Origin: Lepus europaeus | Taxonomy: Eukaryota; Chordata; Mammalia; Lagomorpha; Leporidae | Direction: 5' to 3' | DNA: 64,000 bases | Assembly: GCF_033115175.1 (NCBI RefSeq) | Contig: NC_084828.1 | Coordinates: 93,621,388 to 93,685,387, forward strand | Shown here: piece by piece, positions 14,868 to 58,625 of the stretch | How positions within the stretch are numbered: position 1 is the stretch's first letter | How the letters are laid out: each line of letters begins with the position of its first letter | Notes under the pieces: generated by a model | The model's input: the letters and a program-made list of their open reading frames with translations, nothing else | What the model was told of the DNA's origin: nothing | Database searches by the model: none | Translations under genes and position numbers: made by a program

Positions 14868-17800
14868 CTGAAATGAAAAGTTCATCAAGCACAGATATTT
14901 CCTAAATTGCACTTAACCACCTGCTAAAGTGCTTTTACAAGAGGGGGAAAAACATGGGGAGGGGCAAAAGTATCAAAGCTTTCCACTGGTGCAGCTATAA
15001 AAATAATTTTAAAAGTTTTCAAGTATTACTTCATTTTTTAAAGAAAAAAACTGAATGTAATAGAATAATGAAAAACAACCTTCTCCCATCTTTAAAGGAA
15101 AAAAAAATTAGAATTAACACATTAGGAAAGGGATACTCACCTTGTATAACAAAGCTCAAATCCAAAATCCAATGTACTAACATGTTTCTTTCTCTCTCTT
15201 TATTTATTTTTTTTTTTTGAAGACTTTCTGGAAACAATTTCAGTTTGTTCTATACATTAAAAATGCCACAACTTTAAAATGAACATAATTTCCCTTACTA
15301 AATTTTACTAAATGAAAACTTACAAAGTATTTATTCTACCAATGAGAGAGTCCCTTCTCTGCATTTTTATAACCAGTTAACAGGCTGGCTGATATTAAAG
15401 TTACAGGCTAATATATGAAATATCATTATACCTTGAATTAAAACACAACTCCCCTGGGGGTAAGGGAAGTGTTCTAAAATTAGCCAGTACTGATGGTTAC
15501 ACAATGCTGGGAATATACCTTTAAAAAGCCACATTGAATTCCACACTTCAGAAGGGTGAATTCCAAGATATTTGAATCTTTTCTCAACAAAGCTGGTACT
15601 AACACATTCCCTACCCTGTACCACCCCAAACCATTCTAAACCACTGTTTGCCTGGCTAACTTGATATCCTGTATCAACGCTGGTCACTTTAAAAATAAAT
15701 AAATAAACACATACATACTTCTCTGAAACATGCTTCCCACTCACAGATGATTTACGGTTTCCCAGATACAAGCTGAGAAAACATCTTTCCTATCGGCCCC
15801 ACTAGAAATTAAAGAAACGTAGCTGTGTTGCTTTGCGGGTTCCAGAAATTCCTGGTTATCGCTATGACTAGAGAGTACCACCTCTGCGGCACAAAATTCT
15901 GACAACTACAATTCATTTTTTAAGGCATCAGAAAAAAAGGAGACCACTTACTGATCCTCTTTAATAGGCACTAAATCCACCCCACCCCCTAGCCCCAAGA
16001 GACACCTCTAGCGCCAAAGCAAGCTTGACTTTCAGAATTCTGGATCAGGTATCCCAGGTTGATGCAGCTGAGTTACTTATCTTAAACACACACAAACACA
16101 CATCACCTTGCCCAATGACAAACTGCTCATAAAGAACACTGGCTCACCAAGCGAGAGCACGCCAATCACGTCACAGAGACCTCATTAAGGCTAAACTATA
16201 AACAGCCCTGGCATCTGCCAGCGTCCCCAGTGTGGAGCAGGAGCTGCACAGGGGAGGAACCCTCCTTGCATAGGGATCACGGCAGTGTAGGGCAGTGTAA
16301 GCCCTGGCATCTGCCAGCGTCCCCAGTGTGGAGCAGGAGCTGCACAGGGGAGGAACCCTCCTTGCATAGGGATCACGGCAGTGTAGGGCAGTGTAGACTC
16401 CCCGTCCCAACCCCCGCCCCCAACCTGAGGTTCCCTAGCCTAGCTGATTATCTGGAAGAGGAAAAGATCAGTGCTACTTTAAAATCTACAAAGCTGGGGG
16501 GAGGAGTTGGGGCAGAGAGGAGTTTGCAAGGGAGCAGGCAGCCACCGGAACCCATTCACAACACCAAGCACCATGTCAAGCACAGGAAGATCCTCTCAGT
16601 TCACCAGGGACCCAGAACAATCAGGGAAGGTACAGTCAGTGGATGCGCAGAGGGGCAGGGCTGAGCCACTTCCCGGGTAAGCTACAAATACCAACCGGTG
16701 CCTTTTGTGACTGGCACAGGACAGTGCTAGATGATCCTAAGGGACCTTGGTGACCTGCCCCAAAAGACCAAGTGATTCCATGCATGAAAGATGTGGGGAA
16801 CAGTTTTCTATGATCTTCAACACCCCTCACTCTTCCATCGCCTGGGGGGAAAGAGGCAGAGCCATGAGGGTCGCTGGGCCCAAGTCAAGCACAGCTCTTG
16901 GCCTTGAACAGACTGGACACTGGTCTTCTGTCACCAGGGATACAAGAGCGGGCAGGCCACAGGGACCCAACCTAGAGCTAGGACGCCTGGTAGGTTGTGC
17001 AAAGAAACAAGGACCCAACCTGAAACAAGCAACTAAGGCCACTGTTTGTATCCTACTGCTGCAAAGCCTTTTTAAATGCTAACGGAGAGGCAAAAGGGAG
17101 AGATTGTGTTCATGTTTAAACCATAGCCAGATGGGGGCAAAGGCAGCATAACCAAGTGGGAGAATCCCCGCACCCCAAGTTGTCAGATTCAACACGAGCC
17201 CATGGGGCCCACTGGCCTTGCTCCTGGCGACTCTCCTCGAGGGGCCAGGTGCACTCTCCCTGCACCACGGTCGGCTCGGCTCGGCTCAGCAGCAGGGGGA
17301 GGGGAGGAGAGAGAAGTCGCACGGGAGCTGTAGCTAGCTAGACTGCTGCTGCCCATTGCCTTCATCGCCACGCGCCTGGGTGGACTTCCAGACCTCCAGA
17401 CTCTCACTCCAGGCCCGGACGCTGCACAAGGAAAATGCGAGGCCAAGAGGACACACGGGGTTTCACCACGCCCCCTGCGATCCGCCCGTTTGCACCTTCC
17501 AAGCTTCCCGGTCCCTCACCCGCGCTAGAGACCCCGTTCCAACCGATCCTCCTCCTCGAAAACCTTCTGAAACTTTCCCAGTGCTTCCTCCCTCCAGCCT
17601 CCCCACGCTGGGGCGGAAACCGAAGGACCCCTGTGTGAATATACAAAGCAACCCGCAGCGCTGGGCGGCTGACAGCCCAGAGCCCCGGCTCCAGCTCCAG
17701 GTCTGCGGTGCGTGCTCGCATCGTGTACCTCCATCTATACTCCGTCTGCAGAAACGGAGGAGGACCGCCTTCGAGGGTCGCTGGTTGCCCAGTCTCAGGC

Positions 17801-18255
17801 CTGCGGCCCCAGGGAGGTAGCCCGGGCCGCCCGCCCCACGATCCCGGCACCGGGGCTTGTCTAAGGCCAGATCCGCCTGGGATGCGCTGGCCCCAGGGCG
17901 TTCCCTCTGCCGGCTCGGGCCTGGCTAGGCGACCGTGACCCACACCACGGGCCGCGAACGCAGCACCCCCTGGCGGCCGCTGCTGGGTATGGAGCCAGCA
18001 CCTCGGACCACTCATTCCAACCCTACCTGCCAGCCTTTCGACGCAGGGCCTCCTCCACCAGCTCCCAGGGGTCGCGTCCAGAGGAGCGGGCGGCGGAGAC
18101 CAGAGGGAGGTCAGGCCGCTCTTCTCAGGTCTCCGGCGTCCCCCGAACTGCCCGCACCCCCGATCACAGCCCACCACGGCCAGAGGAAACGCAAGGGAGT
18201 GAGCCCCGTGACAACCGAGGGGCGAGGTGAGGGTGCGGGGGTCACTGCCACCTAC
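14868..18255 (-). other. ABCC5: ABCC5 intron 1
   Basis: Between the exon 1 donor and the exon 2 acceptor. No SINE is visible, unusual for this window. It holds the 96-base tandem duplication and the inner half of the CpG island. Confidence 0.65.
16205..16396. repeat. Perfect two-copy tandem duplication, 96-base unit
   Basis: Units 16,205-16,300 and 16,301-16,396 are identical except for the last base. Each unit ends with its own short repeat (ggcagtgta twice). It lies in ABCC5 intron 1 and explains the repetitive minus-strand open frames there. Confidence 0.95.
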
Positions 18256-18305
18256 CTGCGTCCCAGCTCCCGGAGAGGAGCGCCGGCCGCTCAACCACGC
18301 TCGCG
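18256..18305 (-). other. ABCC5: ABCC5 non-coding exon 1 (5' limit uncertain)
   Basis: Reading the minus strand, GGGACGCAG is followed by a consensus donor gtaggt, so the exon ends at 18,256. It lies in the CpG island 3.4 kb upstream of coding exon 2, the expected layout for ABCC5. The 5' end is set only by a TATA-like element (TATAAA, minus strand, 18,338-18,333), which would put the start near 18,305. CpG-island promoters often start at several sites, so the exon may be longer. A second possible donor (CAGgtaggg) sits about 230 bases downstream, near 18,027. Confidence 0.55.
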
Positions 18306-18470
18306 AGCATCAGCCCCGGAGCAAAACAAGCCTTTATAGCGGCATCGGCCACCTCACCGCGCAGGCGCAATGCACAAAGCTTGCACAGGACTGCAGGGAG
18401 CTGTAGTCCGGCTTCCAGGATCCAGGGGACGTGGACCTGACGCAGGACTACACTTCCCAAGAACACCGAG
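18306..18470 (-). promoter_or_regulatory. ABCC5: ABCC5 core promoter with TATA-like, NRF1-like and ZNF143/THAP11-like sites
   Basis: Upstream of exon 1, reading the minus strand, there is TATAAA at 18,338-18,333 and GCGCCTGCGC at 18,368-18,359, close to the NRF1 palindrome. Two copies of the ACTACA..TCCC motif bound by ZNF143/THAP11 lie in opposite orientation: ACTACACTTCCCA on the plus strand at 18,447-18,459, and ACTACAGCTCCC on the minus strand at 18,407-18,396. All three motif types are typical of housekeeping CpG-island promoters. The motifs are seen; binding is inferred. Confidence 0.55.
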
Positions 18471-19410
18471 GCGGCCCCGGGGGAGGTGCAGGCTGCTCCC
18501 CTTCCCACCGCCCCCGGCTCTGCCCCGTTCTTGCCGGTGCTTCTGCGAGCGGGTCTGGAATTTTCTCCCTGGTCGCGTTCCCGGTGGGCAGTCGGCAGGT
18601 GGACAGTGGCCGTGTGCCCGCGTGGCCGCGGAGGTCCTCGCAGCCGGCGTCCGACCCCGGGAGGCGGTGTCTTCGCGGCCGGCCCATCCCAAAGCTTATC
18701 TGTTCCGGCGCTTAGGGTTTTACGGTTGCTTGCTCGTTACTTGCCCTGCAGTCTGCACGGATCCGGTCCTTTTCTTATCCCAGCTGCCCTTCGTGTCCTG
18801 TGTGAGGGCTGCTGTCTAGATAATAACATGCCAAGACCACCCTTTCAGAAATGGGGAGAGCCTTAGAAGCGGTGTGCCAACGCATCCCTTTGTTTGTATG
18901 AGTTCAACCGAGGCTCCCGGGGACGTAGATGGCTTTTTTTCTGTTTCGTCTGCTCCTGCAACCTCATCATGACGAAGTTATGCTTCTCAGTTGAGTGCCT
19001 TCCTGCTCTATCTCTTGTTTCTTTAATCTCCCTAGCAATCCTGTATATAGGTGTTATGATTTCTCTGTTTCATGGATTTTTTTTAGAGGTGACTTGTCCA
19101 TCGTCCAAGTTCGGTAGTCAGTGTCAAGACTCAAATGTAGCATAAAGCTGAAGTTATTAAACCAGTGAATAGATTGATAAACCAATACCAAACACAGAGA
19201 ACCTAGAAGCAGACTCATACATGTAAGTAAACTTGGTTTGTGACAGACAAAACCTTACAAATCAGGCTCAATAAATAGTACTGAAGCACTCGGTCATCCC
19301 TAGGTAACCCCAGGGATTACTGCTTCATACTACACAGAAAAATCAATTTCCCAAAGATCAAAGGCTTCAATGTGAAAAGGGAAACTTTGAAAAGAGAATA
19401 GGGAATATAT

Positions 19411-32918: not shown

Positions 32919-35900
32919 ATGAAGAAAGGCTGGCCCCATGGGGGAGGAGTCCTCCTCTCTTCTCTCTTCCACCTGCTGCTGCAAGGTAAGACAGGCTGAG
33001 AGCAGGAGCACAGCACACTTGTGGCTCCTGGGAGACAACAGCCAGGCTGATCTTTGCTATTCCCACATAGTCAATGACTGGGCATACATTTTGGGAAAAC
33101 GGAAATTCATGCCCCTGATAGCTTTGTGTGTCTTCCTGGGATCCCAACAAGTAGTTGATGCTTCTTTTTGGAAATGTCTCCACTCCCCAAACTTCTTTTG
33201 GCCTCTTTCTCCCACATTTCTTTTTCCAATCTATCCCTGGGTATCAATGGATATTAAGAAAAGGAAAATTCTTTCTCAGCTCCTTGAAGCCGAGTGAAAT
33301 GGGCTGGAACAAATGCATAGGGAATCAGGAGGTAGATGAGAAGGGCTGTCATCAAAGAGGGAAGCTTTTTCTGTATGATTTTTCCAGCCTTTTTTTCTTG
33401 TGCATTTTTGAAAATGGGCAATGAGTGATAGTATGGCGTAAGAGATAGATAAAAATAGACCACCAGAGGATATTTGTGCTCAAAAAAGTACAACCAGAAA
33501 GGTTTAGGTATAATAAGGTGGGTATCAAGGAACTCTTTAAAATCATCTCAGTGGGGAAGACAACTGAATTTTAGAGAGAGCAATCACAGCACAGAGACAC
33601 AGTAAACACTCATTAAATGGTAAAAACGGAGTTGCTTCCGTAAGGTCTCCTATGTCTCACATTACCTCCCAGATGACTTCCTCTGGCGTTAACTTGCAAC
33701 CATCTGTGCCTTATTAATGCAGTGAGGAGGAGAAGCGTGATTGCAGAATTTGTCCGGGCACCACTCAGGTGGCTTCAGCACACAGGTGGGCAACAGCAGG
33801 ACACTGAGTGAGGGTGGAGAAGTCGAAGGGAAACCACTGGCAGCACAGGAGGACACTGTGAAGCGGTGGTCCAGGCCGAGTTTGCATACAGATCTGGGCA
33901 TGTTTTGCATGGGGACAGAAACAATAGAAGTGAGGATGAATCCTTGACTGAGCTCACCTCATCAACTTCTGCCATTTGCCTACTGGCCCAGGGAGGAGGA
34001 GCTCCCCAGCCTCTCCCAGGGCCCCTGTTTTCCCTCTGTACCGAAGCACGTTCCAGGCCACAGCTCTGGCAGTCTTCTCACAGGCTCTCTGCTCCCTGCA
34101 GGAAGAGGCAACACTTTCACCATCAATTGCTCAGGCTTTGACCGGCACGGGGTGGATCCCGCTGTCTTCCAAGCAGTGTTTGACAGAAAGGCCTTCCGTC
34201 CAGTCACCAACCACAGCTTACCCATTCACGTCAACATCTCCTTCACCCTGTCTGCCATCCTGGAAGTGGTGAGTCCCAGCCCAGCATTGCAATGGTCTAG
34301 TGCTGAGCAGCGAGTCCTCTGCTGTAAACTCAGACTCACAACAAAACCACAAATCCGAAAATAAGCAAAGAACTTAGCTCTCCAAGGAAGACATACAAAT
34401 AGCCAATAAGCACATGAAAATATGCTCAATATCACTAATCATCTAGGCGATGCAGATTAAAATTACAATGAGATACTACCTCAAACCCATTAAGGTGGTT
34501 ACTATCACCACCACCAATAACAACAACAACAAAAAAGCAAAACCAAAAAAACCAGAAAATAAGTATAGGTAAGAATGTGGAGAAACTGGAAACTTCTGCC
34601 TTGTTGGTGGAGATGTAAAATGGCACACCCTCCATGGAAAACAGCATGGCAGTCCCTCAAAAAATTAAAAATTGAATTACTGTACAACCTAGCAATTCTA
34701 CTTCTGGATATATACTCAAGAGAGTCGAAAGCAGGATCTCAAAGAGATCTTCATACAATTTTGTTCGTAGCAGAATTACTCATAAAAGCTAAAGTGAGAA
34801 AGCAATCCAGTTGACTGACAGATGAAAGCGTTCTCTCCATACAGTGGAACACTGTCCATCCTTAAAAAGCAGGGAAGTTCTGACGCACATTGCAATATGA
34901 TGAACCTTGAGGGCATCGCACTAACTGAAATAAACCAGTCACAAAACAACAAATGCTGTAGAGTGCCACTTAGATGAGGTAACTACAGAAGAGACAGACA
35001 GCAGGATGGTGGCTTCCAGGGGCTGGGAAAAAAAGGGAGTTTTGTGTAAAGGGCACACAGTTTTGGTTTGCAAGTTTAAAAAAATTCCAGTGATGGATGG
35101 TGGTAAGAGTTGCAGAATGATCTGAATCTACTTAACACCACTGAACTGCACACTTAAAATGTTAAGACGGTAAATTATTATGTGTTTTAGCACATAATAA
35201 ATGGAAATGATCTTTTTCTTTTTTTTAATGAGAGGCTCATCCTACGGGGTGGGAGATGTGACAGGGAATGATGCGGTGACATCGCTGCATGTGACATCCT
35301 TTTTGGGATACTCCACAAGAACACATGCCAGTGGTCCCTCCTACGGGGTTTTTCATTTTCACTCACCATGCACTCTGGATTATTTTGAGTTACGCTTTTT
35401 AGTGGCTTATGATTAAAAACCATAAGCCTCACATGGAGTGGTCTTGGCAATGAGTAGATGCAGGTAGTGGCATTGGACCTGCCTTCCCGCAGTTCATATT
35501 CCTGGGTGAAAACTGTTTTTCCAGGATGAACAGCTTCAACTGATGACATCATTCCTGTGGCTAAATTTGGTAAGACAGACTCCGCTTCCTCTTCACTTGC
35601 TGTGGCACCTCCTTTTTGTCCACTCCTGGGTACAACCTTGCAGATTACACCAGATGAGCTGAGAAGATCCACAAGTTAGACAAGTTCAAACAGTCAGATG
35701 AACAACGGACACCCAAAACCTCCTGATTATTCCGTCAATCTAGGAGGGCAGAGGTGGGAGCAGGAAGAAGATGGCACAAACCAAAGTCATGGAAAGTCAG
35801 TCCTTAAGTGGCTTCCATCCCAGGGAATCCAGGACCAAGCTCAAGGTCTCCCTGGAGAACACTGAGGGAGAAGTAGAAGCTGGTAAGATGTCATCGGTGA

Positions 35901-38575
35901 TATTCTGACCACAGTCACCAGAGAGAGGGTAGAAATAAATGAAATAAGGAAGTAAAGCAGAGGAGGCAGAGCAAGACGTAAGCTGGTCCCTCCCCCTCCA
36001 TTTACCTCCTGCCGTGGTTCCCTCTAGTTCTGGCACAACCCCTTCATCCAGTGGAACCCGGATGAGTGCGGAGGCATTAAGAAGCTGAGCCTGGCGGCTG
36101 AGAACCTATGGCTTCCAGATATCTACATCGAGGAGTTGTGAGTGTTGGGGCTTAAAATAAGCAAGCAGGAGCTCACATCTGCACAGAAGGGCATAGTGTA
36201 AACCACAGGGCTCCTCCCCACCCCCAAAGACTCGACTCAGGAAATAGCAGAATCTGAACCTAGTATTTTACAATCCCCAGAAAGTAGAGAAGGGAGATAT
36301 GGCAGGAATGAGACACTGGATCCCAGCAGTGGGGTGACCTGAGAGAGAAGGCCAAGTCAGATGGGGACCTCCCTGTCCTTGTCACCCACAGCATGGATGT
36401 GGACCAGACCCCTACAGGTCTCATGGTTTACGTCAGCAACGAAGGTCACATCAAGTACAATAAGCCAATGCGGGTAGTCAGCATCTGTCACCTGGACATC
36501 TTCTACTTCCCCTTTGATGAGCAGAACTGCACTCTCACCTTTAGCTCTTTCATTCACCCAGGTGAGTGAGTGAGCTCAAGCAGGCACTATTGAAATGCGG
36601 CAAGGGTTCTGAGTGAGAAGGGGTGAGGAAGCTGGGAACAGGGAGGGACTCTCACTCAAGCCAAGTGGTGAGGAACCAGGGAGTCTGGGCAAGGGGCTTG
36701 GGATTCTTTGGGGGAGGCTAAGTTGTCTGGGTCTCCTTTGCAGTGGAGCACCTGGTCCTGGGCACGGAGAAGGAAATTCAGGAGGTTTCCAACACATCAC
36801 AGAACCTCATTCAGAGCGAGGGGGAGTGGATGCTTCTGGGGATCCACCAAACCATCGAGAAGATGAGTGTGGGGACCACCCAGTATGACCAAATCACTTT
36901 CCATGTGAGTGCAGGGGCCCTGGTGCTGGTCTTTTCTAAGACTCATAGCCTTGTCCTCCCCTGGAGAAAGTCCTCTCCCAGTAGTAGTGAGCCCCGCACA
37001 TCATGGATTTGTGTCACTTTTTCACTGATAAATCTCCAGTGCAAGAACAATAGCTGGTACTCAGCAAATGTTCATTAAACAAATCTTTCCATGGGAGAAC
37101 AAAGCTCCTATGCCAGTGGTTCAAAGGGCCAATGCGCCTTCCATTCTTCTTGGGCTATCAGCACTCGCAGGAGGGCAGGAGTCTGGATGCTCAGTTTTAA
37201 AACGAGAGGATGGGAAAAGTTACGAATCACCGTCTAAGGGATACGGTGATCCTCCAAATATCTAGCACTGTGTGCTTTCTCCACTTCTGGCCTTGAGTGT
37301 TCACCTTCAGAGTCACTGGGGATTAGGCCTTGATAAGAAAAGCAGGCAGAAATAAAAAGAGAGAATGCACCTGGTACCCAGGCATCTGCTCCCGCGGTGC
37401 TAAGTGTGTATCGGTAGGGATAACGATTTCAGTGGAGAAGGCTGACACTCTGACTCAAGAATGATGAGATGTGGTGAGCAGCATGGCAGAAGCAAACCCA
37501 TGAGATGCCTGCAGGTGCAAAGACAGGGCGTTTCCTTGCTAGAGGGTCTGGCCGGAGGCAAATCCCAGCTCTCCCTCTTAGCAGCTGGCAGCCCCCGGCC
37601 ACTCCTTACTCGTCCCCTCCTTCTCCCCCCCAGGTGGCCATCAGGCGCAGGCCCAGCCTCTTTGTCATAAACCTCCTGGTGCCCAGCGGCTTTCTGGTTG
37701 CCATTGATGCCTTCAGCTTCTATCTGCCGGCAGAATATGAGAACCGCGCGCCCTTCAAGATGACCCTGTTGCTGGGCTACAACGTCTTCCTGCTCATGAT
37801 GAACGACTTGCTACCGGCCACGGGCACCCCCCTCATCAGTACGGAGAATGCAGGCAGGGCAGGGGTGGAGGGGGAGAGGGGCCAGCCAAACCTGGTCACA
37901 GTAAAAAGGAGTTCTGCAAACAGGTCCTCTGGCAAAGAAGGCCCAGGCAGGGGTGGGCGGGGCCTCTGGCCCCCACACAGGCCCACCTTCCTTTCCTCAG
38001 GTGTCTACTTTGCCCTGTGTCTGTCCCTGATGGTGGCCAGCCTGCTGGAGACCGTCTTCATCACCTACCTGCTGCACCTGGCCACCACACAGCCCCCACC
38101 CATGCCCCAGTGGCTCCGCTCCCTGCTGCTGCACTGCACCAGCCCCAGGAAACAAAGCCCCACTGTGCCCCAGGAGGGCAGTAAGAGCCTGGGTCTCAGC
38201 CCCACCCACCTGCCAGGTAACAAAAGTCAGCACCGCCCTCACGTCCTCTTCCCTCCCCTCCACCCCTGCTCCTGTCACCATCCCTGTCACCCTCCATCAC
38301 CAGTGACCTTAGCAGCCCATGGCTGAGTCTGTGTCCCCTCCACAGGCCTGAAGGAGCCGGTAGAGCTGGTGGGGAAGGTGCCAGGTCCCAGGGAGGCAGG
38401 GCTGCGTGTGTGTCCTGAGCCGACGAGGGCCCAGCCGGACCACGAGGCCCAGAAGCTGCGCTTAGTGGAGCTGTGGGTGCAGTTCAGCCACGTGATGGAC
38501 ACCCTGCTCTTCCGCCTCTACCTGCTCTTCATGGCCTGCTGCATCATCACCGTCATTGTCCTCTGGAGCACCTAG
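32919..38575 (+). CDS. HTR3D: 5-hydroxytryptamine receptor 3 subunit D, complete, nine exons, 456 aa
   Basis: Subunit of the serotonin-gated 5-HT3 cation channel (Cys-loop family). Coding exons: 32919-32985, 34102-34268, 35525-35569, 36028-36137, 36392-36561, 36744-36904, 37634-37838, 38001-38216, 38346-38575. All introns are GT-AG, phases match and there are no internal stops. Domains: signal peptide (about 1-23, MKKGWP then a Leu-rich core), extracellular domain with Cys-loop C162-C176, M1 about 249-271, M2 281-300, M3 310-335, M4 433-454. Aligned to 5-HT3A, the binding residues W90, E129 and Y234 are kept, R92 is Asn, and loop-B W183 is Phe, as in the C/D/E group. It is called HTR3D because exon 4 carries [12 protein letters not shown], exon 5 VDQTP.GLM and exon 6 resembles human HTR3D, and because it lies next to ABCC5. 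Unlike the human gene it keeps the whole Cys-loop exon. Exons 8-9 are almost identical to HTR3C. Confidence 0.93.
34336..35205 (+). mobile_element. Old LINE-1 3' fragment in HTR3D intron 2
   Basis: Reads in the sense direction through typical LINE-1 ORF2-end and 3' UTR wording: 'atgaaaatatgctcaat', 'tggagatgtaaaatggcac', 'tggtggcttccaggggctgg', then 'aacaccactgaactgcacac'. Many frame breaks; not active. It fills most of the intron. Confidence 0.8.
35206..35524. other. Unassigned end of HTR3D intron 2
   Basis: About 320 bases after the LINE-1 fragment that match no repeat I recognise. The minus strand stays open through the neighbouring exon, but it has no features of a known protein. Confidence 0.4.
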
Positions 38576-38591
38576 GCAGGTGCTCACCTCT
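38001..38591 (+). repeat. HTR3D exon 8 - intron 8 - exon 9 block shared with HTR3C
   Basis: This block matches 58,035-58,625 with about 11 mismatches: 1 in exon 8, 3 in the 129-base intron 8 and 7 in exon 9. Similarity begins at the exon 8 acceptor and stops 16 bases after the stop codon. The sequences on either side (intron 7 and the 3' untranslated region) do not align well. Confidence 0.9.
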
Positions 38592-52608: not shown

Positions 52609-55316
52609 ATGGACGGGAGATGGCCAGACAGCAGGGGATTCCTCCTCTGCCTCGCTGTCAGCCTCCTGCTCCAAGGTAAGGTGGGACCGGCACAAGGAAG
52701 GGCAGGGTGCAGTTCTGAAGGGCACGCAGATGCCCTGCAGCCCCTGGAGGGCATTCAGAGTTAGCCGGCTAAACAGTCCTTCCATAATGGCTGCCTCTTC
52801 ATTTCCTTCCTGTGACAGAGAGACAGATCGCTGGTGAGTACACAGCCCTGTTTTATTCATGCTTGCATAGGAATCTACCAAACAGTCCCGTTTTGCCAGT
52901 TCTACAATTCCATCTTTTCACTGACTCCTGGTGCTGCACCTGCCACAGCCCTTTCCCTCTTTCCTTGTCTATGGTATCCACAAAAAGAGGGGCCAGTTAA
53001 ACCAGTTCTTAAGGATTAAGTACAACATTAAGAGAGGGTGAAGAGCAACTTGAGATTAAAAGAAGCAGATACTTCCTCAGGAGGGAATATTTATTCCCAA
53101 TCTGGGCGCACACCTTAAATATGATGGAGAGATGAAGGAGATACAGAGAAGGGAGCAGAGAAGACCATGCAACAGTGGCAACAGGGCAAAGGTTCTGCTC
53201 AGGTACGAACCACATGGCTCCCTGGCCTTGACCATGAGATGACATCTACATAAGCCTGTGATTGGGCATGCGTTACATGCTCAGTGAAGTCACCTAATAA
53301 TTCCAGTGCTTGAAACAGCCCACAAGATTTTTGAGAAAAGCATTTATTTAATGCATAGCACCAAGAGGTATGAACTCATTCAGAATTCTACTACTTGAAT
53401 GTGCTTCCCATATCTACCTAGTAAGTGCGATTGTTTACTTTACTTATCTGACATTTCAGTTCTCGCCTTCAATAGATGGAAGTCTGAGGGGACCTAGACT
53501 ACAAGTTCTAGGGCAGTGCTAAGCAGGACCATTGCTGGGTGGAACCAAAAAGCTTATGATGTGGACATTAAGGGACTCTTTGAAGTTACTGCCATTGCAC
53601 TAAGGTCAAGTTTGCATACAGATTTGAGCAGATTTTGTTTGAGAACAAAACAATGGGACTAAGAATGGAGTACTGACTCAGCTCACCACAGTGACTTCCA
53701 CCATTTGCCTACCAGCCCGGCCCGTCCTCCCCAACCCCGGCAGGAAGGGCTTTGGCCAGCAGAGCCTTCGTCCAGGAAACAGGGATTCACCTGCTCCTCC
53801 TAGAATGCCCTTTACTTTCTCTCTGCAGAGAGGCCACAGCCCTTGAAACAGAGGCCCTCTCTCACAGGCTCTCTGCTCTCCGCAGGAAGAGGTAACACCT
53901 TCACCATCAATTGTTCAGGCTTTGACCAGCACGGGGTGGATCCCACTATCTTCCAAGCAGTGTTTGACAGAAAGGCCTTCCGTCCAGTCACCAACCACAG
54001 CATCCCCACTCGTGTCAACATCTCCTTCACCCTGTCTGCCATCCTGGAAGTGGTGAGACCTGGTCCTGCATCTTCCCATAGTTTCTAATAGGGAACACGG
54101 ACCCTCCGCCCTCCCAACCCAATGGTCCAGTGGAGAAGAGCAGGTACCCTGTACAGACTGTACAGACTGTGGGGTGGAGAGCCATGAAGAAGAATGTTGC
54201 AGTGATTTTTTTTTTTTCAGGAAGCATTTGTCCTTGAGTCCTGTCCTCTCTGGAATGCTCTGTATGTCAATTAAAATTTGAAATGGGCCGGCACCGCAGC
54301 TCACTAGGCTAATCCTCCGCCTTGCGGCACCAGCACACCGAGTTCTAGTCCCGGTTGGGGCACCGATCCTGTCCCAGTTGCCCCTCTTCCAGGCCAGCTC
54401 TCTGCTGTGGCCAGGGAGTGCAGTGGAGGATGGCCCAAGTGCTTGGGTCCTGCACCCCATGGGAGACCAGGAGAAGCACCTGGCTCCTGCCATCGGATCA
54501 GCGCGGTGCGCTGGCCGCAGCACACCTACCGCGGCGGCCATTGGAGGGTGAACCAAGGGCAAAAGGAAGACCTTTCTCTCTGTCTCTCTCTCTCACTGTC
54601 CACTCTGCCTGTCAAAAAATAAAAAATTAAAAAAAAATTAAAAAAAAATTTTTTTGAAATGTCCCTACTCAAGGGGAAACCAGTAAGAAAAAGATGATCC
54701 AGCAGCCAGATCTATGGTTGGTCCATAAATGAATAACTTTTGGTGAGGCTATGAGGTGGGAGGGGGCTGAATCTTTTTGCACTAATAATCCCAGATGGGA
54801 ATTTCTTTATCAGGACGCACAGCTCCAGCTGCTGACATCATTCCTGTGGATAGATCTGGTAAGGTTGATTCAACTACCCCCTTCCCTTTTCTATGTATAT
54901 TTTTTAATTTGAGGAGTTAGAAGTAATTTAAAGGTTAGAAAGCTAGAAGGTCCCAATCTCTACTCAAGGTATAAATCTTCCTGAAAAAAAAAAAGGTATA
55001 TCTAGAATTGGACTGGCCCTGGGGACATGAGCCTCCCCAGGCAGCTTAGGAGGCTGGCACCGTGATGTACTGGGTAAAGCCACTGCCTGCAGTGCCAGAA
55101 TCCCATATGGGCACTGGTTCAAGATCCAGCTGCTCCACTTCCAATCCAGCTCTCTGCTATGGCCTGGGGAAGCAGTAGAAGATGGCCCAAGTCCTTGGGC
55201 CCCTGTACCCACATGGGAGACCCGGAAGAAGCTCCTGGCTCCTGGCTTCTGGCTTTGGATTGGGTCAGCTCTGGCTGTTGCAACCATCTGGGGACTGAAC
55301 CAGAAGATGGAAGATC

Positions 55317-55371
<55 letters not shown>

Positions 55372-58300
55372 CTGCCTCTGCCTCTCTGTAACTCTGCCTT
55401 CCAAATAAACAAAAAAAATTAAAAAGAAAGAAATGACCCATATAAAACCCCAATAAATGGTCACATGGCTGCAGGCCGGATAGATTGTGTGTGCCTGGCT
55501 CTAAGTGGTTTTATGCCATGTTTAAGATCTTCCTGTGAAAAAGCCAGTAAGGAGCAGTTAGTTGATGCCGTCTTGTTAAATAAAGATGGGGAGATAGCCT
55601 GTGGTCATTTGGAAAACAAATGGGTAGGAGGGATCAAGGCACAGAGAAGACTGGAAAGGACAGGAAAGGCTGACTGGACAAGCTCACCACCAGTCACCCC
55701 TGTTCCTCGCTGCCCTGGCTGTAGACATGGGACAACCCTTCCATCAGCTGGAACCCGGAAGAGTGTGTCGGCATCAACAAACTCTCTGTATCAGCGGAAC
55801 ACCTGTGGCTCCCTGACATCTTCATCTTGGAATCGTGCGTATCTGGGGCTGAAACACCACCTGCGAAGAACAGCCTAGGCTCAGTGTGGGGCGGGGGCCG
55901 CCACAGATTCAGACAGGGTCAGTCTCTAACGACTGGCTTCCACAAAGCACCATGATCAGCAGCAGAGACAAGACAGAGCCACGTTGGAGGAAGAGTCCAG
56001 AAGGAGCCCAGGGGACACCTGGTGAGGAAGACCAGAGCCGGTTAGGGCACCCACAGACCCACTTTCCCTCCTTTCCCAAACAGGATGAATGTGAACCTGA
56101 CACCTTCAGGTTTCACCACCTTCATCAGCAGCGAAGGGCGAGTCAAGTACAGCATACCAATGCGCGTGACCAGCATCTGCAACCTGGACATCTTCTACTT
56201 CCCTTTTGACCAACAGAACTGCACCTTAACCTTCTGTTCTTTCCTCTACACAGGTGAGTGTGACATGCATGGTAGCTACTTAAGATGCAGAGGAAGGCAC
56301 TTAAGGGGTGGGCATATTGTTCGGGAATGTTGAGATAAATGCCTCTCAACTCTGGCTGCCTGCTAACGCTTTTAAAAAAGACCCATAACTTCAAGACTTT
56401 GTCTCACCCTAGACCAGGAGAATTCTTGCAGGTGCGGCCCAGGCCTCATTTGTCTTTGTATTTCCCTAGGTGATACTAATGTACAGACAGGGCCACTGCT
56501 TTACATCTTGGAGGGCCCTTGTCCCACATGAGGGCCACAGGATCCTGAACCTCCACATGCCTACACATTTCAGCTTAAATATTTAAACTTTAGCAGCTAA
56601 CAGACTCAAACTAGTAAATTAAAGTAACTGAACGCCACCAGGTATCATGCGGCAGATTTGGATAAGTTAATCATCATGACGAACATGTGTAATTATAAAA
56701 GTGTGGAGCTGTTCAAGTTTTGTTCCACTAAAAAAGCATCATACAGTGAGGGAATTAAGAAGGAAAACAGGAATATCCCCAAAAGTTCTTGACTCACGTT
56801 TGAGTCATGGTCCATAGTCCCATAACAACCTTGACTCGCTCTTGTTTTCCACAACAAAATCAATGCTGCCGCCTCTGCCCATGCGAGTTGCTGGTTGTAT
56901 AACCTACTTTTGAGAAAGCCAGAATGCCCTGCTATGAAGGACAGAGAAGAAAATCTGTGGAAGAAGCCCCATGGGGGAGGAATCCAGGTTTATGAGCAGG
57001 AGGCTTGGGGACACTTCCCGAAGGAACTGACTGGGCCTCCCTTACAGTGGACAGCATGGTCCTGGGCATGGACAAGGAGGTGTGGGAGATAACAAACTTA
57101 TCTCGCAAAGTCATTTGGACTCGGGGAGAGTGGGAGCTCCTGAGCATCAACAAAGCCACCCCAAAACTGTCCGTGGGCACAAACCTCTACGACCAGATCA
57201 TGTTCTATGTAAGTCCCCGGGTGCCACTTTGGCTTCTGATCCCAGTTACTCCATGACTTTCCTCTTGATCTAAGGCTCTTAAGGAACCTCTACCTGTCTA
57301 CCCCAAAATTGGCTCCCTAGGCTCTCCCTTCTCTCCATACCTGCTGTGGCCACCAGGCAGAGGGGAGGAGCAACTGGGCTGTTAGAAGCACTCCTACTCA
57401 GAATGGGCAGTTCAAAGGCCCCTAAGTTTCACAACCCTTGCATTCCCACAGGTTGAAAAGCAATCAAAATCAGAGCACATCAGAGACATGTAAGGGCACA
57501 GTAAAATAGGTTGTGTTATCTAAAAAGATGGCCCCACGGCCAATTCGAAAGCACCCTGGCCAGGACCACAGAGTCGCATACACACAACAGCCCCCGGCAG
57601 CCACTGGTTTGCCACCTTGCCCACCCTCTCTCCAGGTGGCCATCAGGCGCAGGCCCAGCCTCTACATCATAAACCTCCTGGTGCCCAGTGGCTTTCTGGT
57701 TGCCATCGACGCCTTCAGCTTCTACCTGCCAGCAGAAGGCCAGAACCGCGCGCCCTTCAAGATCACCCTGCTGCTGGGCTACAACGTCTTCCTGCTCATG
57801 ATGAACGACTTGCTCCCGGCCACCGGCACCCCCCTCATCAGTACGGGCCCTCCTGCTCACTGGAGCAGCAAAGGCAGCAGGGAATAGGGGGAGGGACCAG
57901 GAGAGCCGGTGGTTGCTCCACTTGAGGAGGCAAGGTGTGGGGGGGGACTAAGGAAAGACTGGATTCGGAAAAGAGCTTCAGAAACACTTGGAGATGAACC
58001 TGCCTGGTTTATTTATAATCTGCTTCACCCTCAGGTGTCTACTTTGCCCTGTGTCTGTCCCTGATGGTGGCCAGCCTGCTGGAGACCGTCTTCATCACCT
58101 ACCTGCTGCACCTGGCCACCACGCAGCCCCCACCCATGCCCCAGTGGCTCCGCTCCCTGCTGCTGCACTGCACCAGCCCCAGGAAACAAAGCCCCACTGT
58201 GCCCCAGGAGGGCAGTAAGAGCCTGGGTCTCAGCCCCACCCACCTGCCAGGTAACAAAAGTCAGCACCGCCCTCACGTCCTCTTCCCTCCCCTCCACCCC

Positions 58301-58609
58301 TGCTCCTGTCACCATCCCTGTCACCCTCCATCACCAGTGACCTTAGCAGCCCACGGCTGAGTCTGTGTCCCCTCTGCAGGCCTGAAGGAGCCAGTAGAGC
58401 TGGTGGGGAAAGAGCCAGGTCCCAGGGAGGCAGGGCTGCGTGTGTGTCCTGAGCCGATGAGGGCCCAGCCGGACCACGAGGCCCAGAAGCAGCGCTTGGT
58501 GGAGCTGTGGGTGCAGTTCAGCCACGTGATGGACACCCTGCTCTTCCGCCTCTACCTGCTCTTCATGGCCTGCTCCATCATCACCGTCATTGTCCTCTGG
58601 AGCACCTAG
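52609..58609 (+). CDS. HTR3C: 5-hydroxytryptamine receptor 3 subunit C, complete, nine exons, 456 aa
   Basis: Subunit of the 5-HT3 serotonin-gated cation channel, expected to need 5-HT3A for function. Coding exons: 52609-52675, 53886-54052, 54814-54858, 55725-55834, 56084-56253, 57048-57208, 57636-57840, 58035-58250, 58380-58609. Every exon length equals that of the HTR3D gene 20 kb upstream; all introns are GT-AG with matching phases. The signal peptide begins [10 protein letters not shown], close to human HTR3C. The Cys-loop is C162-C176 ([16 protein letters not shown]); M1 about 249-271, M2 281-300, M3 310-335, M4 433-454. Loop residues W90, E129 and Y234 are kept, R92 is Asp and W183 is Phe. 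It is called HTR3C because exon 6 reads [15 protein letters not shown] and later NKATPK, matching human HTR3C. Oddities: an extra Cys at 181 and Ser at 99 where the paralogue has Phe. Introns 2 and 3 each hold a CSINE. Confidence 0.94.
54287..54645 (+). mobile_element. CSINE2-type in HTR3C intron 2
   Basis: Forward, sense to the gene; tttgaaatg repeated on both sides. Confidence 0.9.
55050..55430 (+). mobile_element. CSINE in HTR3C intron 3
   Basis: Forward, sense to the gene, with a (CT)n expansion at about 55,319-55,368. Confidence 0.9.
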
Positions 58610-58625
58610 GCAGGTGCTCACCTCT
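58035..58625 (+). repeat. HTR3C partner of the near-identical exon 8-9 block
   Basis: Partner of 38,001-38,591. Exon 9 differs at four residues (V/E, T/M, L/Q, C/S) and exon 8 at none. Intron 8 is 129 bases in both genes. Confidence 0.9.

Follow-up and report, generated by a model that had tools for sequence, protein, structure and literature searches.

The gene pair

The window, i.e., the whole stretch of 64,000 nucleotides that was analyzed (C2:93621388-93685387 in a 2.93-Gb assembly), contains two tandem paralogues, situated 20 kb apart on one strand. The SINE type in the window would agree with the lagomorph host assumed in the preliminary description of this DNA. Both proteins match the ligand-binding domain PF02931 and the transmembrane domain PF02932, which identifies them as subunits of 5-HT3-type Cys-loop channels, and when the second protein is used as query in a search of the PDB, its best relatives are 5-HT3A chains. 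Both gene models were derived manually on the basis of the splice sites; there are nine exons in each, of pairwise equal length in the two genes:

32919..38575, plus strand: HTR3D-like gene, 456 aa, open; exons 32919-32985, 34102-34268, 35525-35569, 36028-36137, 36392-36561, 36744-36904, 37634-37838, 38001-38216, 38346-38575
52609..58609, plus strand: HTR3C-like gene, 456 aa, open; exons 52609-52675, 53886-54052, 54814-54858, 55725-55834, 56084-56253, 57048-57208, 57636-57840, 58035-58250, 58380-58609

In human, the cluster HTR3D-HTR3C-HTR3E is located at 3q27 in the order D-C-E, and the gene order of the window, together with some residues, presumably corresponds to D followed by C. The human 5-HT3C, D, and E proteins used for comparison are provisional sequences, and every count given here that involves a human protein depends on them. 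When exons 3-6 are compared, the best match of the C locus is human C, with 133/162 identical residues. The D locus, for the same exons, is more similar to human C (104/162) than to the degenerate human D (53/137), while its exon 4 shares 26/37 residues with human D and 25/37 with each of human C and human E. The name HTR3D for the first locus is provisional and based mainly on the human gene order.

Exons 3-6 encode most of the ligand-binding domain and are distinct between C and D. Alignment with 5-HT3A places M1-M2 in exon 7, and M3, the cytosolic loop, and M4 in exons 8-9. The preliminary description of this DNA had proposed that the two genes share a block that covers M3, loop, and M4 and leaves the ligand-binding parts distinct, and the alignment and the divergence of exons 3-6 agree with this.

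Near identity within a diverged pair

When the window is compared with itself, positions 37995-38591 align with positions 58029-58625 over 597 bp, ungapped and with 11 mismatches (98.2% identity), where about 590 bases with about 11 differing sites had been claimed. A DNA search of the whole genome finds the block at no fewer than two places, both of them the loci in the window:

37995..38591, plus strand: block, very probably converted, HTR3D-like copy; exon 8, intron 8, exon 9, and 16 bases of 3' UTR
58029..58625, plus strand: the same block, HTR3C-like copy; 11 differences in 597
38217..38345, plus strand: intron 8 within the block (HTR3D-like); 3 differences in 129

The mismatches are distributed as 1/216 in exon 8, 3/129 in intron 8, and 7/230 in exon 9, so that the intron inside the block is indeed as alike as the exons, and the protein-changing differences, 4 of the 11, are all found in exon 9. 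With the edges of the block defined as the limits of detectable homology, the left edge lies 6 bases upstream of exon 8, at a CCTCAG acceptor common to both genes, and the right edge 16 bases past the TAG, which confirms that the similarity begins at the exon 8 acceptor and ends 16 bases after the stop codon. The CCTCAG motif may be a mere common splice acceptor, or be due to chance.

Within the block there is 1 difference in the first 325 bases and 10 in the last 272, a skew toward the 3' end with permutation p values of 0.028 (change-point) and 0.054 (longest run), from which it is possible that the main block derives from two events rather than one. Eight of the 11 differences are between a strong and a weak base, four in each direction. 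The GC content is 0.635 in the block and 0.473 across the window, and GC3 is 0.86 in exons 8-9, 0.71-0.72 in exons 3-6, and 0.84-0.90 in exon 7. GC3 is, however, similarly high in exon 7, and GC-biased conversion is thus no more than possible. When intron 8 and the fourfold sites are taken together, K is 0.024 (0.008-0.057).

The synonymous divergence per exon, a comparison proposed in the preliminary description, was calculated according to Nei-Gojobori with Jukes-Cantor correction. The dS values for exons 1, 2, and 3 are 1.34, 0.12, and 0.52; exon 4 is saturated; and the values for exons 5 to 9 are 0.77, 0.78, 0.23, 0.018, and 0.057. When pooled, dS is 0.037 for exons 8-9 and 0.95 for exons 3-6, i.e., about 25-fold lower in the block. 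The corresponding synonymous differences are 4/111 and 54/101 (Fisher p = 1.5e-17), and the differences at fourfold sites are 2/81 and 18/37 (p = 2.9e-9). The longest identical run in the coding sequence is 140 bp, a length reached by 0/5000 permutations (maximum 78), and the strongest segment of low divergence takes in the last few codons of exon 7 and all of exons 8 and 9, with 4 differences in 142 codons and 0/5000 permutations of the silent differences as extreme. Exact runs of silent codons, which constitute a weaker test, give 170/10000 permutations.

Near identity in exons 8-9 could, in principle, reflect strong purifying selection on the M3-loop-M4 part in the absence of any conversion, and the membrane helices encoded here do align with 5-HT3A. 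Selection on the protein, however, is at odds with silent sites (4/111) and an intron (3/129) that are as alike as the protein itself, and if the neutral divergence is set to 26%, as given by a piece of intron 1 that is 74% identical, the binomial probability of the intron 8 count is 2e-13. The cytosolic loop is, in addition, generally the least conserved part of such receptors, which counts further against purifying selection, and we regard this explanation as extremely unlikely.

Global identities of the introns outside intron 8 (0.68-0.80) are inflated by gaps, and local alignment scores were instead compared with those of shuffled sequences. Intron 8, which is 98% identical, has a local score of 123, compared with a maximum of 25 in 100 shuffles. 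For introns 2, 3, 4, 6, and 7 the local score is not above the best of 100 shuffles, and for intron 7 it is 14 against a maximum of 17. Introns 3 and 4 have z values of 3.2 and 2.7 relative to the shuffles and may contain weak residual homology, and introns 1 and 5 retain weak pieces with 74-77% identity. The 3' flank past the block scores 28, slightly above the maximum of 24 in 100 shuffles. From this follows that the strong divergence previously ascribed to intron 7, exons 3-6, and the 3' UTRs holds for the intron and the exons, while for the 3' flank it is qualified by this slight excess over the shuffles.

The right edge of the block bears also on the idea that one of the genes acquired its present end through a recent partial duplication or an unequal crossing-over. 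Tandem paralogues on one strand at a distance of 20 kb are suitable substrates for such an event, but a single crossover would bring the 3' UTR and the sequence downstream along with it, while the observed similarity is lost 16 bases past the stop codon; exchange at both ends, on the other hand, is conversion. The probability of this explanation is close to nil. A recent segmental duplication was also considered and rejected, as it does not fit the pattern of divergence.

Probable conversion and probable mosaic structure of the pair

In summary of the pattern to be explained, a near-identical block of coding and intronic sequence is present at two separate loci with old divergence on either side of it, and its silent and non-coding similarity is far above that of the rest of the pair. 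Because near identity at silent and intronic sites is here embedded in an old gene pair, with poorly alignable sequence on both sides, the block is very probably the result of interlocus gene conversion between the HTR3D-like and HTR3C-like genes. The earlier proposal of a recent conversion tract in place of purifying selection is thereby upheld. A reservation is that a single event is unlikely to account for the whole pair, since exons 2 and 7 probably represent further tracts.

The conversion would have started with a double-strand break, presumably meiotic, that was repaired from the paralogue 20 kb away, with the consequence that one of the two 5-HT3 subunit genes received its exon 8, intron 8, and exon 9 as a copy from its neighbor. 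Heteroduplex extension is expected to stop where homology is lost, and the tract would accordingly have halted at both ends where the genes align poorly, in intron 7 and in the 3' UTR. The event would have occurred well after the duplication, with a divergence of about 2% accumulated since. A spliced mRNA as template is ruled out by the presence of intron 8 inside the block, and a transcript that retained the intron is a possible but unnecessary assumption. That both frames are open suggests that a converted gene can be functional, and sharing of the M3-loop-M4 part may have been tolerated as this part serves assembly and not ligand binding. Selection that favors common assembly parts is a speculation.

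The exons with intermediate dS values, 2 and 7, are situated in two further blocks:

34076..34287, plus strand, paired with 53860-54071: exon 2 with intron edges; 212 aligned bases with 18 differences; dS of the exon 0.12; probably a further tract, older than the main block or of similar age
37630..37844, plus strand, paired with 57632-57846: exon 7; 215 aligned bases with 16 differences; dS of the exon 0.23; probably an older tract

The exons themselves are 93.4% (exon 2) and 92.2% (exon 7) identical and the blocks 91-93%, well above exons 3-6, and the silent divergence of the two exons is 4 to 8 times below that of exons 3-6. Fourfold sites differ at 2/25 in exon 2 and 3/35 in exon 7, compared with 18/37 in exons 3-6 (p = 8e-4 and 2e-4). 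A segment scan over exons 1-6 singles out exon 2, with 40 silent codons without difference (0/5000 permutations; 1/5000 when the scan covers exons 1-7), while exon 7 is not significant in a scan of exons 3-7 (369/5000).

How these two exons relate in age to the main block depends on the class of sites. In comparison with the synonymous count of exons 8-9 (4/111), exon 7 is higher (10/51, p 0.0016) and exon 2 is not distinguishable (4/40, p 0.21), and at fourfold sites the two exons combined (5/60) are not distinguishable from exons 8-9 (2/81, p 0.14). When all sites are counted, protein-changing ones included, exon 2 (11/167) and exon 7 (16/205) both exceed the block (11/597), with p values of 0.003 and 2e-4. 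The gene pair is, then, probably a mosaic in which exons 2 and 7 were produced by further events of like kind, and its history probably not that of one event; a greater age of these exons relative to the main block is less certain.

This graded similarity is not to be expected if one gene has been filled in with reads from the other during assembly, an explanation that deserves attention in that polishing or gap filling is able to create blocks that look like conversion. The window is, moreover, without N, the flanks differ between the two copies, and the 11 differences, of which 4 are at CpG sites, resemble ordinary mutation. We consider an artefact of this kind very unlikely.

Partners, direction, and related cases

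To delimit the possible partners of the two genes, a region of 224 kb was considered, which consists of the window with a downstream flank of 140 kb and an upstream flank of 20 kb. A sensitive search downstream reveals a decayed HTR3-like gene at C2:93708815-93714589, with exons 1 to 6 in pieces at 63-75% identity, and a lone relic of an HTR3-like exon 2 at C2:93739800-93739999 with stops in all three frames. Three of the seven relic pieces have a stop in every frame; relic exons 1, 3, 4, and 6 have one stop-free frame each, and in exon 4 the protein match shifts frame. The relics represent one or two further HTR3-like genes: the decayed gene perhaps occupies the HTR3E position, and the lone exon 2 perhaps derives from a fourth gene. 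Exons 7, 8, and 9 were not found by the sensitive search in the 140 kb downstream; in a control with planted copies, carrying substitutions only, the search recovered 60/60 at 25, 30, and 35% divergence alike and 58/60 at 40%. The 20 kb upstream, searched with less sensitive settings, contains matches of at most 25 bp. As no exons 7-9 were detected in the relics, C and D are the only genes in these 224 kb in which the block was found, and each has only the other as a partner there.

The direction of the conversion can be approached through the provisional human proteins. Window C and window D agree at 144/148 residues in exons 8-9 and at 96/162 in exons 3-6. In exons 8-9, window C and window D share 106/137 and 105/137 residues with human C, 103/148 and 102/148 with human D, and 102/148 and 101/148 with human E. 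Because both copies of the block are nearer to human C than to human D or E, the block appears slightly C-like and C is mildly favored as donor and D as recipient, with a probability that we put at a little over one half. Against C as donor speaks that, in the same exons, human C is about as similar to human D (105/137) and human E (104/137) as it is to window C, and that in exon 8 it is nearer to human D (62/72) and E (63/72) than to window C (58/72). If the end of human D was taken from E, the original D type would furthermore be hidden.

Human D and E, in their provisional form, are identical at 140/148 residues in exons 8-9 but only at 52/137 in exons 3-6, a hint that exons 8-9 may have been homogenized in human as well, D with E. 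This leads to a wider explanation, compatible with conversion in the present pair, in which the mammalian history of exons 8-9 includes many rounds of overwriting, with partners that differ between lineages. The uneven dS within the pair (0.037 in exons 8-9, 0.12 in exon 2, 0.23 in exon 7, and 0.95 in exons 3-6) points in this direction, as do the all-site excess of exons 2 and 7 over the block, the human D-E contrast, and the downstream relics without detectable exons 7-9, which leave C and D as sole partners in the searched region. Against it stand the provisional nature of the human side, the restriction to one genome, and the silent sites, at which exon 2 resembles exons 8-9 and exons 2 and 7 together do not stand out at fourfold positions. 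Repeated conversion with changing partners is thus a tentative proposal, to which we give somewhat less than an even chance. The same guarded status applies to its corollary, that in the accessory 5-HT3 subunits exons 8-9 could be a conversion hotspot, rewritten repeatedly with whichever paralogue keeps the block; the partner of D would be E in human and C here. If true, evolution is concerted for the M3-loop-M4 assembly module and divergent for the exons that encode ligand binding.

The relation to the human HTR3C/HTR3D/HTR3E cluster is one of the same gene family; the difference is that in human, according to the provisional proteins, it is D and E, and not D and C, that have exons 8-9 in common, and that the third position is occupied here by a relic only. 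A further parallel is offered by CCR5 and CCR2, gene conversion between which is reportedly the subject of Carmo 2006. As described in PMC3511233 and PMC8877049, conversion between these neighboring receptor paralogues has taken place in several mammals, the Oryctolagus lineage among them, and the latter paper states that heterodimer formation, i.e., assembly, was proposed as a reason for the converted membrane parts and was later doubted. The cases are alike in that adjacent paralogous receptor genes have had part of a gene converted and that an assembly idea has been raised. They differ in that the present genes encode subunits of a pentameric ion channel and the tract includes an intron and reaches the end of the gene, and in that exons 3-6 stay distinct here, while the change in rabbit CCR5 altered an external loop.

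The mechanism is thus well known, but the HTR3D/HTR3C case seems new as far as searched. No gene conversion between HTR3C and HTR3D was found in the open-licence literature, where an earlier mention is possible; among the matches listed in a broader literature search, none had both 5-HT3 and gene conversion; and in the main text of a published subunit phylogeny (PMC9977066), the word 'conversion' occurs 0 times. If the last third of the gene has a separate history, whole-protein trees and orthology assignments of HTR3C, D, and E will mislead. The case also amounts to a natural domain exchange, by which M3-loop-M4 is separated from the ligand-binding part.

Elsewhere in the window, the stretch at ~17400-18999 resembles a CpG island, with GC 0.57-0.72 and a CpG observed/expected ratio of 0.70-0.85 in 400-base bins, and both of its strands contain long open frames that overlap. 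It is perhaps the 5' end of a neighboring gene, for which the human gene order would suggest ABCC5.
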